Assembly: GCF_006716115.1 (NCBI RefSeq)
Contig: NZ_VFOO01000001.1
Coordinates: 62,001-126,000 of the forward strand
Length of the DNA stretch: 64,000 nt
Reading direction: 5' to 3'
Origin: Subtercola boreus
GTDB taxonomy: Bacteria > Actinomycetota > Actinomycetes > Actinomycetales > Microbacteriaceae
Both the position numbers and the translations under genes were made by a program. The notes under the pieces were generated by a model, which was not told the DNA's origin, made no database searches, and saw only the letters and a program-made list of their open reading frames with translations. Each line of letters opens with the position of its first letter. The stretch's first letter is position 1. Positions 45,280-49,213 of this stretch are shown in pieces.

Positions 45280-47367
45280 ATGTCCAGCGCCACCAACGTC
45301 GAAGCCACGGCGGTCAACACCGTGCAGTGGCTCTCCGCCCCCCAGACGTCGATCGTCGTTCCGGTGTACCAGCGCCAGTACCGGTGGGACATCGGCGGGT
45401 GCGAGCAGTTGCTCGCAGACATCCGTGCGGTGGCCGATTCGGATGACCGGCAGAGGCACTTCATCGGATCGATCCTCTCGACGGCCGCGGGTGAGGATGC
45501 TCCGCGTTCGGATTCGGCGGACGAACTGGTGCTGATCGACGGCCAGCAGCGCATCACGACGCTGATGCTCCTCGTCGCAGCCCTCCACCACACGGTGCTG
45601 CAGGAAGCGCGGCAGTCGCCCGACGCGCCGGACGAGAACCCCGCACTGGCCCGTGAACTCAAGGCCGTGCTCGTACGGGCATCCGACCCGGATCGCACGA
45701 AACTCCGCCCGCACCGGGCCTGGGCCGACGTCTTCGAGAGCGTCGTGCTCGACCGCCGCAGCGCAGGCGACCAGCTGGGCGATTCACGTTTCGACGACAA
45801 CTACGCGTTCTTCCGCAGCCAGGTGCTGGTCGATGAGGTGCCGCGCATCTGGCGGGGGCTGCAGAAGCTCGAGCACGTCGCGATCACGCTCGGCGCCGAC
45901 GCGAACGCTCAGCAGATCTTCGAGAGCCTGAACTCCACGGGCGAACCGCTCCTCGACCACGAGCTGATCCACAACTACGTACTTATGGGTCTCTCACACG
46001 CGGAGCAGAGCGAGATCGAGGACACCTACTGGCTGCCGATCGAGCAGAACACCGGGGAATCGATCGCCAGCTTCTGGCGCCACTATCTTGTGATGATCAC
46101 CGGTCGTGAGGTCGCGGTGGCGGGCGGTCGCGGGGTCTACGACGCCTTCCGGCAGCAGTTCCCCCGGCTCGACCTCGACACCCTGCGCCTGCGGGCGGCC
46201 GAGTGGCGGGAGCTCTCCGCGGACTATCGCGTGCTGCTCGACCCGTCGCTGGCCCCCGACCCGGGCATCGCCCGGCAGCTCACCTTCCTCAACACGTTCG
46301 GGCGGGGTTCGTATCCGCTCGCCCTCCGGGCATACCGGGACTGGTCGCGCGGAGAGACCACGGCCGCTGTGCTCACCGGGGTGCTCGAGCACATCCAGTC
46401 GCTCCTCCTCCGCCGCACCGTGGTGGGGATCGGCACCGAGCGTGTCGTCGCGCGTCTCTGCCGCGCCCGCGAACTCGGGCCCGAGGCCCTCGTTCTGGCA
46501 ATCGCCCGCATCACCCCGTCCGACGAGCGGGTGCGCGTGGCGCTGAAGTTCAGCGACCTGCCGCACCCCGGCTACGTGCTCGGTCGGATCGCCGACCGCA
46601 CCGGGCGGGGAACGGATGCCGCGGGGGGCGGCCTCTCCGGCCTCTCCGGGTTCGACGTGGAGAACATCTTCCCGCTCTCCCCGCCCGACACGTGGAGCGG
46701 TGACGGCACGCGCGCGTGGACCGACTACACCGACGACGAGCAGAACAGCCACCGCGCCCTCGCGCAGACCCTCGGCAACCTGGCGCTGATCGAGCAGCCC
46801 CTCGCCGAGCGGGCCGTCGACCGGTCGTTCCCGGTCAAGCGTGCGCTCTACGCAGGCAGCGACATCCTCACCACCGCTGAACTCGCCGAGGCGACCGAAT
46901 GGGGCACGGCAGCCATAGCCCGGCGTACCGCCCGCCTCACCGAGGTCTTCCTCGAGGTCTGGGCACGCCCGGCCGCCGTCGGGATCGACGACGACGGTCT
47001 CACGCCGATCCTCGATGCGGCGCGGAGGCGCGGCTGGCCGCGCGGGTGGGAGCGCGAGTTCGAATACGTCGAGTACCGCGGCGAGCACTGGGAGGTCTAC
47101 GACGTCAAATACCTCTTCAACCGCATCTTCAAGCGGCTGTGGGCGGATGCCCGGGAGAGTGTCGTCGCGTTCAGCGCTCGCCGAGGCGGCCCGATCTACG
47201 AATCCCAGGCGTGGAACGGCCACTGGGACGCCCTCGACGAATCCCACTACCTCTACATGGGCTGGGATTCGAAGTACATGTTGACCGCCCTGCAGGGCGT
47301 ACTCGACGAAGCGGGCATCGCGGCCGAGGTCTTCGTCAAGTACTCCTACATCGGCGCGGTCATGTAG
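45280..47367 (+). CDS. DUF262/DUF1524 (GmrSD-like) protein with altered nuclease motif
   Basis: 695 residues. The N-terminal DUF262 domain has VPVYQRQYRWD (28-38) and the ParB-like IDGQQR (86-91), used for nucleotide binding and hydrolysis in GmrSD/BrxU-type restriction systems. The DUF1524 region normally carries an EHIxPQ-type His-Me finger; here it reads VENIFPLSP, so the key His is Asn462. The downstream LGNLALIEQ is kept. About 150 residues follow (DVKYLFNRIFKRLWADARE...). The protein may therefore bind modified DNA without cutting, or use another site. Coding starts directly behind a -10 box. Confidence 0.85.
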   Translation: MSSATNVEATAVNTVQWLSAPQTSIVVPVYQRQYRWDIGGCEQLLADIRAVADSDDRQRHFIGSILSTAAGEDAPRSDSADELVLIDGQQRITTLMLLVAALHHTVLQEARQSPDAPDENPALARELKAVLVRASDPDRTKLRPHRAWADVFESVVLDRRSAGDQLGDSRFDDNYAFFRSQVLVDEVPRIWRGLQKLEHVAITLGADANAQQIFESLNSTGEPLLDHELIHNYVLMGLSHAEQSEIEDTYWLPIEQNTGESIASFWRHYLVMITGREVAVAGGRGVYDAFRQQFPRLDLDTLRLRAAEWRELSADYRVLLDPSLAPDPGIARQLTFLNTFGRGSYPLALRAYRDWSRGETTAAVLTGVLEHIQSLLLRRTVVGIGTERVVARLCRARELGPEALVLAIARITPSDERVRVALKFSDLPHPGYVLGRIADRTGRGTDAAGGGLSGLSGFDVENIFPLSPPDTWSGDGTRAWTDYTDDEQNSHRALAQTLGNLALIEQPLAERAVDRSFPVKRALYAGSDILTTAELAEATEWGTAAIARRTARLTEVFLEVWARPAAVGIDDDGLTPILDAARRRGWPRGWEREFEYVEYRGEHWEVYDVKYLFNRIFKRLWADARESVVAFSARRGGPIYESQAWNGHWDALDESHYLYMGWDSKYMLTALQGVLDEAGIAAEVFVKYSYIGAVM

Positions 47368-48161: not shown

Positions 48162-48232
48162 GCCGACGACGGGGGGTGACGCGGGCGGCCCGCGTCTCGT
48201 AGGCTCGGAGGCGAGCGAGGTCTGGAGCACGG

Positions 48233-49213
48233 GTGAACGGGATCGAAGAGGTTCTCGAGCAGTTCGCCGCCGCGGCCGGAGTGACGGCCGACGAGGTGAA
48301 GGCGCACAGGGCGCTGCGCGACCGGGTCGCCGACGTGCTGACGGGTGACATCGCGGGCGGCGTCGGCCGGGGCGCGATCGAGGTGCTGCGGCTGGTCGAT
48401 GCGGGGTCGTTCCGGCATGGCACTGCGGTTCGGGGCGCGAGCCGGTTCGACGTGTTCGTCGTGCAGGGCGGCGCGCGGCCGAAGTCGCTCGCGCGGGTGC
48501 TGCAGGGCATCCGTGCGGCCGTTCAGGATGCCCTGCCCGACCTGTCCGTGAGTACGACGTCCGACTCGGTGCTGGTCGACGCGCCCACAGCCGACCGCGA
48601 GCGCGAGGCCCGCGCTGGTGCCGACGCCCGCACTGGCGCTGACGCCCGCTCCGGCATCGACGCCCGGAGCGCAGACGCCCCAGTTGCCGTGCGGCTGCGG
48701 CTCATCCCTGCGGTGGAGGCCCCGGACGACGCCGGCAGCGCGGTGGTCGCGATCCCCGATGCGGCGAGACGCTGGGTTCTGAACCGGCCCGGCGCCCGGG
48801 AGCAGCTGATCGACCGGATCGACGACTCGCACCTCCGCTCGCTTATCCGGCTGCTCCTCGTCTGGAAGCACGTGAACCGGGTGCCCGTCTCGTCGTACTA
48901 CCTGGAGACGGCCGTGGTGCGCCAGGCCCTCCGGCAGCCGTCGTTCAATCTGCTCTGGGACCTCTGCTGGGCCTTCGAGCAACTCGCCCACGACGATCTG
49001 GTGGGCCTGCCCGACCTGTCGAGCCCGTCGCAGGTGCAGAAGGTGCGCGCGGCCGAGACCCTCGGCCGGCGGATCGAGGCGCAGGGCCCGATCGACGAGG
49101 CAGCCGTGCACGCCCGCGAGGCCGTGAACGCGTACCTCGACGACGACCGCCCGGTGGTGGATGCCCGGCTCACCGAACTCTTCGGCCCGAGTTTCGCGAC
49201 CTTCGACCGCTGA
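48233..49213 (+). CDS. Nucleotidyltransferase-like protein with degenerate active site
   Basis: 326 residues from GTG 48233. The N-terminal part resembles the OAS/CD-NTase fold: DAGSFRHGTAVRGASRFDVFVV fits the GSxxxGTxxxxxSDxD pattern. However, the first catalytic Asp is Arg71, with only Asp73 left, and the third-Asp strand reads VRLRLIPAVE in place of a vDlvP motif. Between them is a repeat insertion (residues about 125-148, DARTGADARSGIDARS). The C-terminal helices LIRLLLVWKHVNRVPVSSYY are like those of the OAS-type helical domain. TAGGCT (48199-48204) gives a short leader. It may be an inactive relative or a sensor; the family call is inferred from motifs. Confidence 0.6.
   Translation: MNGIEEVLEQFAAAAGVTADEVKAHRALRDRVADVLTGDIAGGVGRGAIEVLRLVDAGSFRHGTAVRGASRFDVFVVQGGARPKSLARVLQGIRAAVQDALPDLSVSTTSDSVLVDAPTADREREARAGADARTGADARSGIDARSADAPVAVRLRLIPAVEAPDDAGSAVVAIPDAARRWVLNRPGAREQLIDRIDDSHLRSLIRLLLVWKHVNRVPVSSYYLETAVVRQALRQPSFNLLWDLCWAFEQLAHDDLVGLPDLSSPSQVQKVRAAETLGRRIEAQGPIDEAAVHAREAVNAYLDDDRPVVDARLTELFGPSFATFDR

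Follow-up and report, generated by a model that had tools for sequence, protein, structure and literature searches.

CD-NTases are bacterial immune enzymes that produce cyclic-nucleotide alarm signals, and a competent CBASS cyclase carries a D/E-x-D motif and a third D/E, binding two metals. In DncV, Lys287 and Ser301 are reported to touch the beta and gamma phosphates of GTP (PMC7288161), and in LpCdnE Lys201 and Ser220 are reported to touch the donor gamma phosphate (PMC10442399). The BcCdnD variants D73N and D75N are reported to be inactive (PMC13424991). Dead members of the cGAS/OAS-type fold are already known in animals, namely OASL and NF45/NF90. OASL reportedly has Thr152 in place of the third acid, and binding of dsRNA is described as central to how it works (PMC4446440), while the DZF domains of NF45/NF90 are described as NTase-fold pseudoenzymes that have lost key catalytic residues (PMC11952958). 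A conserved dead bacterial CD-NTase was not described among the literature matches listed, which came mostly from outside subscription journals and preprints.

The window analysed here is a 64,000-nucleotide stretch of the Subtercola boreus genome (contig NZ_VFOO01000001.1, positions 62,001 to 126,000). It contains a gene whose product is probably a stand-alone CD-NTase-fold pseudoenzyme, in which the cyclase died once in the ancestor of the clade and was kept for a non-catalytic job. The gene is an open frame with an RBS-like element ahead of it.

48224..48227, + strand: RBS-like GGAG, 5 nt ahead of the start codon, by sequence
48233..49213, + strand: pseudo-CD-NTase coding sequence, 326 aa, GTG start codon; PDLC00776 match at E 5.4e-35; 25 carriers in three genera

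Family assignment was made using profile searches. The PADLOC model PDLC00776 ('oligonucleotide-cyclase') matched the window protein in two stretches. It also matched all 30 rows of alignment A3, which holds 24 dead and 6 active sequences, and the match was close to full length in several carriers (residues 3-285 of 287 in G776, for example). Profile A1, built from relatives, matched P. aeruginosa CdnD in the PDB with an E value of 4e-8, and CdnD is the best solved relative of the window protein. Pfam assigned the window protein no domain of any family, the top match being DUF883 at E 0.047, under its cut-off. The Pfam SMODS profile did not reach E 0.001 with the window protein and did so with 7 of the 30 A3 rows, and the NCBIfam models CBASS_cyclase_b and CBASS_cyclase_a scored 27 and 24 bits, far short of the cut-off of 200. 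Searching the window's genome with PDLC00776 revealed no second CD-NTase, the single match being this gene. The sequence match to CD-NTase models across both lobes places the protein in the CD-NTase superfamily by descent. The window protein descends from CD-NTases, yet falls short of what that family needs for catalysis.

The fold was assessed using AlphaFold2 models. The first model was built from four sequences (the window protein, two from S. boreus and one active relative from a viral contig) and had a mean pLDDT of 55 and a pTM of 0.57, with residues 71-120 modelled best (block means 76-86) and the C-lobe mostly below 50. Foldseek matched this model to 11 chains with E below 0.001 (3.5e-6 to 9.5e-4), all of them CdnC, CdnD, CdnG or NF45, at low TM-scores of 0.31-0.40. 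In VIA-align, with 114-135 residues aligned at 3.0-4.0 A, the Z scores were 11.1 (CdnG), 10.4 (CdnD), 9.5 (NF45) and 8.8 (OASL); further nucleotidyltransferases, URT1, GLD-2 and TUT7 among them, also came to about 9. The matches mostly covered residues 13-204, with VIA-align barely reaching past about 204. A second model made without the active relative was poorer (pLDDT 52, pTM 0.46); CdnD again came first and Foldseek returned zero matches below 0.001. The first-pass annotation had proposed a CD-NTase/OAS-like fold from the letters alone and had named a search for related folds as the check. The proposal was supported by PDLC00776, by the match of A1 to CdnD and by the Foldseek and VIA-align matches to CdnC, CdnD, CdnG and NF45, the models themselves being weak. 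Taking the model and the sequence matches together, the predicted N-lobe fold is well supported; the predicted C-lobe, unlike the N-lobe fold, is not well supported.

Active-site positions were located by profile alignment with P. aeruginosa CdnD (PDB 6p82, 6p8u) and counted in A3. The window protein reads GSFRHGT at residues 58-64, S-R71-F-D73 at residues 70-73 and V153-R-L-R156-L-I-P on the third-acid strand. In the CdnD alignment R71 fell on the first and D73 on the second Asp of D-I-D, and R156 fell on the Asp position of 'VDAVP'. Left out of A3 were L045 (G744), the two broken copies (G490, G293), the weakly matching frame of G516 and more distant cyclases, and the 25th carrier, G780, was read apart from A3.

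48404..48424, + strand: GS loop G58-S-F-R-H-G-T64, kept; in dead A3 rows G 24/24, S 21/24, H 22/24, G 23/24, T 24/24
48443..48451, + strand: R71-F-D73, first metal Asp replaced and second kept, by A3 residue counts; G780 has R and D
48581..48682, + strand: linker, low-complexity and length-variable (residues 117-150), by the A3 alignment
48698..48700, + strand: R156 at the third metal position; dead A3 rows R 23, H 1, active rows E 6/6; G780 has R
48857..48859, + strand: L209, Lys in active relatives; dead A3 rows L 20, I 4 versus active K 6/6; G780 has L
48890..48895, + strand: S220-S221, by motif the donor-phosphate Ser, kept; S220 in 22/24 dead rows (T in 2), S221 in 24/24

Metal positions 1 and 3 were non-acidic in all 25 carriers, the third being Arg in 24 and His in one, and the C-lobe Lys position was Leu or Ile in every carrier. 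The second Asp (D73) was present in 25 of 25. Residue 71 varied among the dead A3 rows (R in 12, L in 5, W in 3, H in 2, A in 1 and Q in 1), and W211 and K212 were retained. Eight intact near relatives (the six active A3 rows and two more) kept all four residues (D, D, E, K). Among the more distant cyclases, an intact D-x-D was read by eye in all 15 loci listed. By motif, L209 and S220/S221 are the likely counterparts of the donor-phosphate Lys and Ser of DncV and LpCdnE. The protein lacks both the full set of three metal acids and, by motif, the donor-phosphate Lys of a catalytically competent CBASS cyclase. Because two-metal binding as in CD-NTases is impossible and the likely donor-phosphate contact is lost, cyclic-nucleotide synthesis is very unlikely, and on the residues present we are highly confident that nucleotidyl transfer is absent. 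The loss of catalytic acids claimed in the first-pass annotation was thus seen at R71 and R156, which stand at the first and third acid positions. It had asked whether R71-F-D is conserved in homologs: the acid loss is, in 25 of 25 carriers, with residue 71 itself variable and D73 fixed. A replacement acid elsewhere was looked for as well, and no invariant candidate was evident in A3, where the D56 position was acidic in 23 of the 24 dead rows.

To determine the distribution of the gene we scored all candidates in two genera: 9 of 12 Subtercola genomes have it, as do 15 of the 16 from a second genus. It was also present in the one genome of a third genus. The first genus was taken as Subtercola since its members G152 and G151 have the same proteins as two S. 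boreus records, L001 and L002. The frames of all 25 carriers were free of internal stops. Since 3 of the 12 Subtercola genomes and 1 of the 16 in the second genus do without the gene, it is dispensable. Searches across the class, family and phylum scored about five or six candidates per genome, so their counts are lower bounds. In the family-wide search at least 20 of 398 genomes matched at 1e-8, 18 with the dead type and two (G606, G744) with other CD-NTase relatives. In the class-wide search at least 8 of 394 genomes matched at 0.001, the window's own included; the seven others were five active-type CD-NTase relatives (one split, in G490), a broken copy in G293 and, in G516, a weak match lying in a frame that resembles a membrane protein. 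The split gene in G490 (L073) is interrupted by an apparent transposase gene, read by eye, and the broken copy in G293 (L083), also of active type, has three in-frame TAG stops. Viral contigs scanned with A1, A2, L080 and L047 yielded no relative from the dead clade and one active relative, L080, twice. In L080 (2421-3816 of viral contig IMGVR_UViG_2892702859) the active-type CD-NTase gene lies right after a small gene for an apparent membrane protein with no Pfam match. In this sample the dead type is restricted to three Microbacteriaceae genera.

The origin of the dead type was assessed using a 36-row tree with a midpoint root, G780 being left out. The 24 dead rows formed one side of a branch with support of 100/100, recovered in all 200 bootstrap trees. 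The stem of the dead clade is long, at 1.95 changes per column, so that no one active relative is singled out as the nearest sister. L045 of G744 grouped with the active relatives; this separate CD-NTase-like frame (L045/L068), whose long branch falls outside the dead clade, has Gly at acid positions 1 and 3 and may have lost the acids independently. On the 30-row tree the fewest changes needed were 8 at position 71, none at position 73, 2 at position 156 and 3 at position 209. The first position drifts, Asp is fixed at the second and Arg is now nearly fixed at the third, which is not the pattern of simple decay.

Selection was measured from dN/dS in 11 hand-picked pairs of dead orthologs and from pairwise identity.

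48758..49210, + strand: C-terminal helical lobe, residues 176-326, under the strongest constraint by pairwise identity and dN/dS

Overall dN/dS was 0.064-0.401 in the 11 pairs, which have branches in common and in which dS is lowered by GC-rich codon use. Divided by lobe, it was 0.060-0.281 in the C-lobe versus 0.076-0.493 in the N part, with the C-lobe lower in 10 of the 11 pairs and L038-L077 being the one without the contrast. One of two active pairs was usable and gave 0.205 in the N part and 0.184 in the C-lobe; the second pair had a saturated dS, with dN roughly the same for the two parts. All 276 dead pairs, non-independent but uniform in direction, were more alike in the C-lobe than in the N core (mean identity 0.63 vs 0.46), as compared to only 6 of 15 pairs of active relatives (means 0.49 vs 0.50). 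Constraint has shifted from the catalytic lobe to the helical lobe, and the substitution rates indicate purifying selection on the gene, centred on the C-lobe.

These data also bear on whether the protein is still an enzyme, with D73, D56 and other residues sustaining a different or weak nucleotidyl or hydrolytic reaction. The GS loop, D73, the mostly acidic D56 position, S220/S221 and K212 are all kept, and catalytic residues are reported to have possibly migrated in some pseudoenzymes (PMC10211241). However, every carrier lacks acids 1 and 3 as well as the C-lobe Lys, position 1 drifts, the N core is the less constrained lobe and the reported inactivity of BcCdnD D73N and D75N (PMC13424991) points the same way, leaving a residual activity improbable.

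A conserved element was found upstream of the gene.

48200..48205, + strand: TANNNT (-10-like) box TAGGCT, beginning 33 nt ahead of the start codon

The TANNNT box occurred upstream of 22 of 24 dead genes, compared to 2.6 on average, and at most 8, across 2000 mononucleotide shuffles, and had the form GTAnnnTC in 21 of those 22 (read by eye). The upstream stretch of G780 carries the same box. As the sequences are related, this recurrence is conservation and not a set of independent events. A sigma-70 consensus scan of the window found zero promoters, making this a conserved box but no proven promoter; its recurrence suggests that the gene may travel with its own transcription start. The gene's absence from 3 of 12 Subtercola and 1 of 16 second-genus genomes would suit a gene in decay, or an ordinary gene read this way by chance, but purifying selection, the invariant columns, the conserved upstream box and the 25 stop-free frames make that explanation barely credible. 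The gene is very probably functional and not decaying.

Neighbourhoods were read at 19 of the 25 dead loci, with genes called by a frame heuristic that missed some (c4 in three loci, later recovered by tblastn). The dead gene sits in at least five settings. In five Subtercola genomes, the window's included, it lies before LtrA (5/5), and a GmrSD-like gene is upstream in four of these five clade-A loci, the fifth being at a contig edge, and in none of the 14 other stretches. In three others the gene lies between TetR-like and MinD-like genes (names read from sequence), and G007 and G026 have one separate setting each. In the second genus it follows gene c4 in 9 of 9 loci and precedes a diacylglycerol-kinase gene in 7 of 9. 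G093, where the gene is absent, has c4 and the diacylglycerol-kinase gene about 90 bp apart and so provides an empty site. Gene c4 (loci L051, L058-L065) encodes about 211 aa with no Pfam match in two members scanned. The scanned neighbours in the window were GmrSD-like, SpoIIAA-like, luciferase-like, LtrA and thioesterase-like.

45430..47367, + strand: GmrSD-type gene (GmrSD_N and GmrSD_C), upstream; syntenic in G150 and in S. boreus L001 and L002
47709..48161, + strand: SpoIIAA-like gene between the GmrSD-type gene and the pseudo-CD-NTase gene

That interval has no called gene in G150 and in S. boreus P27444 (L001 4159-4925) it holds a VapBC-like pair, read from sequence, which the window lacks; in L002 a SpoIIAA-like stretch lies further upstream. 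No partner gene was common to all 19 dead loci. The GmrSD-like gene was rejected as a constant partner, being restricted to four of five clade-A loci. Gene c4 was likewise rejected: it is upstream in 9 of 9 loci of the second genus and 3.9 kb off in G007, and since every one of the 14 tested genomes has one or two members of the c4 family, the link is weak. A toxin-antitoxin pair (MNT-HEPN, for example) was not supported either, the gene having at least five neighbourhoods and no common adjacent gene. The first-pass annotation had offered a sensor, toxin-antitoxin or defence role in place of second-messenger synthesis; a non-catalytic role remains the best reading of the data, and the toxin-antitoxin part found no support.

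We also compared the dead loci with seven active relatives whose neighbours were read (L066, L067, L069, L070, L071, L072 and L080). An S_4TM effector adjoins three of them (L066, L067 and L072) and an HNH protein adjoins L069. In L066 (7142-9760, G597) two CD-NTase genes flank one S_4TM effector, and this genome also has the dead type. No gene of the 19 dead loci clustered with the S_4TM effectors of the active relatives. A CBASS operon was not supported, no adjacent effector having been found by S_4TM clustering in the 19 loci or by the profile scan of the window's neighbours. Of 29 genomes, 5 had SMODS (PF18144) above cut-off, four of them among the 25 carriers and one among the 4 non-carriers. 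All 12 Subtercola genomes lacked such a match, 21 of the 25 carriers had no other SMODS gene above cut-off, and G775 has a further place below it.

Two further explanations were weighed. In the first the protein is a prozyme, serving as regulatory subunit to an active CD-NTase in the same genome. A dead paralog that activates a live partner has a reported precedent in the TbAdoMetDC prozyme (PMC5201418), and G597 has active-type cyclases together with the dead type; however, another SMODS gene above cut-off is present in just 4 of the 25 carriers, besides the sub-cut-off place in a fifth, G775, and PDLC00776 detects no further gene in the window's genome, which makes a prozyme very improbable. 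In the second the protein is a phage-defence decoy or guard, a dead look-alike that binds anti-CBASS proteins, phage RNA or cyclic nucleotides and triggers or spares another system. The fold is that of immune enzymes, a related cyclase is reported to bind phage RNA through a positive surface (PMC10686824) and Panoptes, reported to guard cyclic-nucleotide immunity, is a precedent (PMC12657218). Set against this are the steady presence of the gene in most genomes of two genera, the lack of a common defence partner across the 19 loci and the lack of another SMODS gene above cut-off in 21 of 25 carriers and 12 of 12 Subtercola genomes. We regard a decoy or guard as unlikely.

We return to a stand-alone pseudoenzyme kept for a non-catalytic job, most likely the binding of a ligand or partner, for which we propose the following course. 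An ancestral active cyclase would have become catalytically dead once, in the clade ancestor. A contact between R156 and D73, joined by R71 in about half of the members, would replace the two-metal centre, and with this contact in place of metals no cyclic nucleotide would be made. The pocket may hold a phosphate-bearing ligand without metal, or a salt bridge may close the site; the GS loop, the Ser pair, D73 and the fixed R156 would be compatible with either. Conserved charges were gained in 4 positive and 4 negative columns and lost likewise in 4 and 4, and because gains and losses balance neither metal-free ligand binding nor salt-bridge closure is favoured. A net positive pocket was rejected as unsupported on the same balance. 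The conserved C-lobe surface may dock a partner protein or nucleic acid, a function that the strong conservation of this lobe fits, and by such docking the protein would work much as OASL or NF45 do, as a sensor or a scaffold. A ligand-gated sensor is possible and is put forward tentatively, as is a pure scaffold. It is more doubtful that the protein is a full bacterial counterpart of OASL, shared by entire genera, in which a charge-swapped pocket would recognise a nucleotide, an oligonucleotide or phage-derived RNA metal-free and the C-lobe would signal to a partner; such a protein would be a receptor of the cGAS family with no second messenger.

If the pseudoenzyme reading is true, pseudo-CD-NTases arose in bacteria as well as in animals, and present profiles either miss such proteins (Pfam SMODS) or call them cyclases (PADLOC). 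A PADLOC 'Cyclase' match then calls for inspection of the three acids. The gene would also offer a simple single-gene setting for studying the non-catalytic functions of the fold.

Compared with known systems, the window protein shares its sequence family (PADLOC PDLC00776) and N-lobe fold with the CBASS CD-NTases of the CdnD/CdnC type (PDB 6p82, 6p80), along with the GS loop, the second Asp and the WK and SS motifs of the C-lobe. It differs from them in lacking metal acids 1 and 3, the C-lobe Lys and an adjoining S_4TM effector, and in that the dead type is a single gene, widespread within its genera. Human OASL is likewise a dead member of the OAS/cGAS-type NTases, reportedly retained for a non-catalytic role, and the model aligns to it with a Z of 8.8 over 122 residues; OASL differs in having reportedly lost the third acid only (PMC4446440), in its ubiquitin-like domains and in belonging to another kingdom with other partners. 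NF45 was among the top structural matches of the model, whereas NF45/NF90 form heterodimers in RNA-binding complexes and their sequence similarity to the window protein is non-significant (E 0.22). As in OASL and the DZF proteins, the window protein has a predicted NTase fold with its catalytic acids lost and is kept by selection. By analogy, it may work like the OASL and DZF proteins while being a member of neither group.
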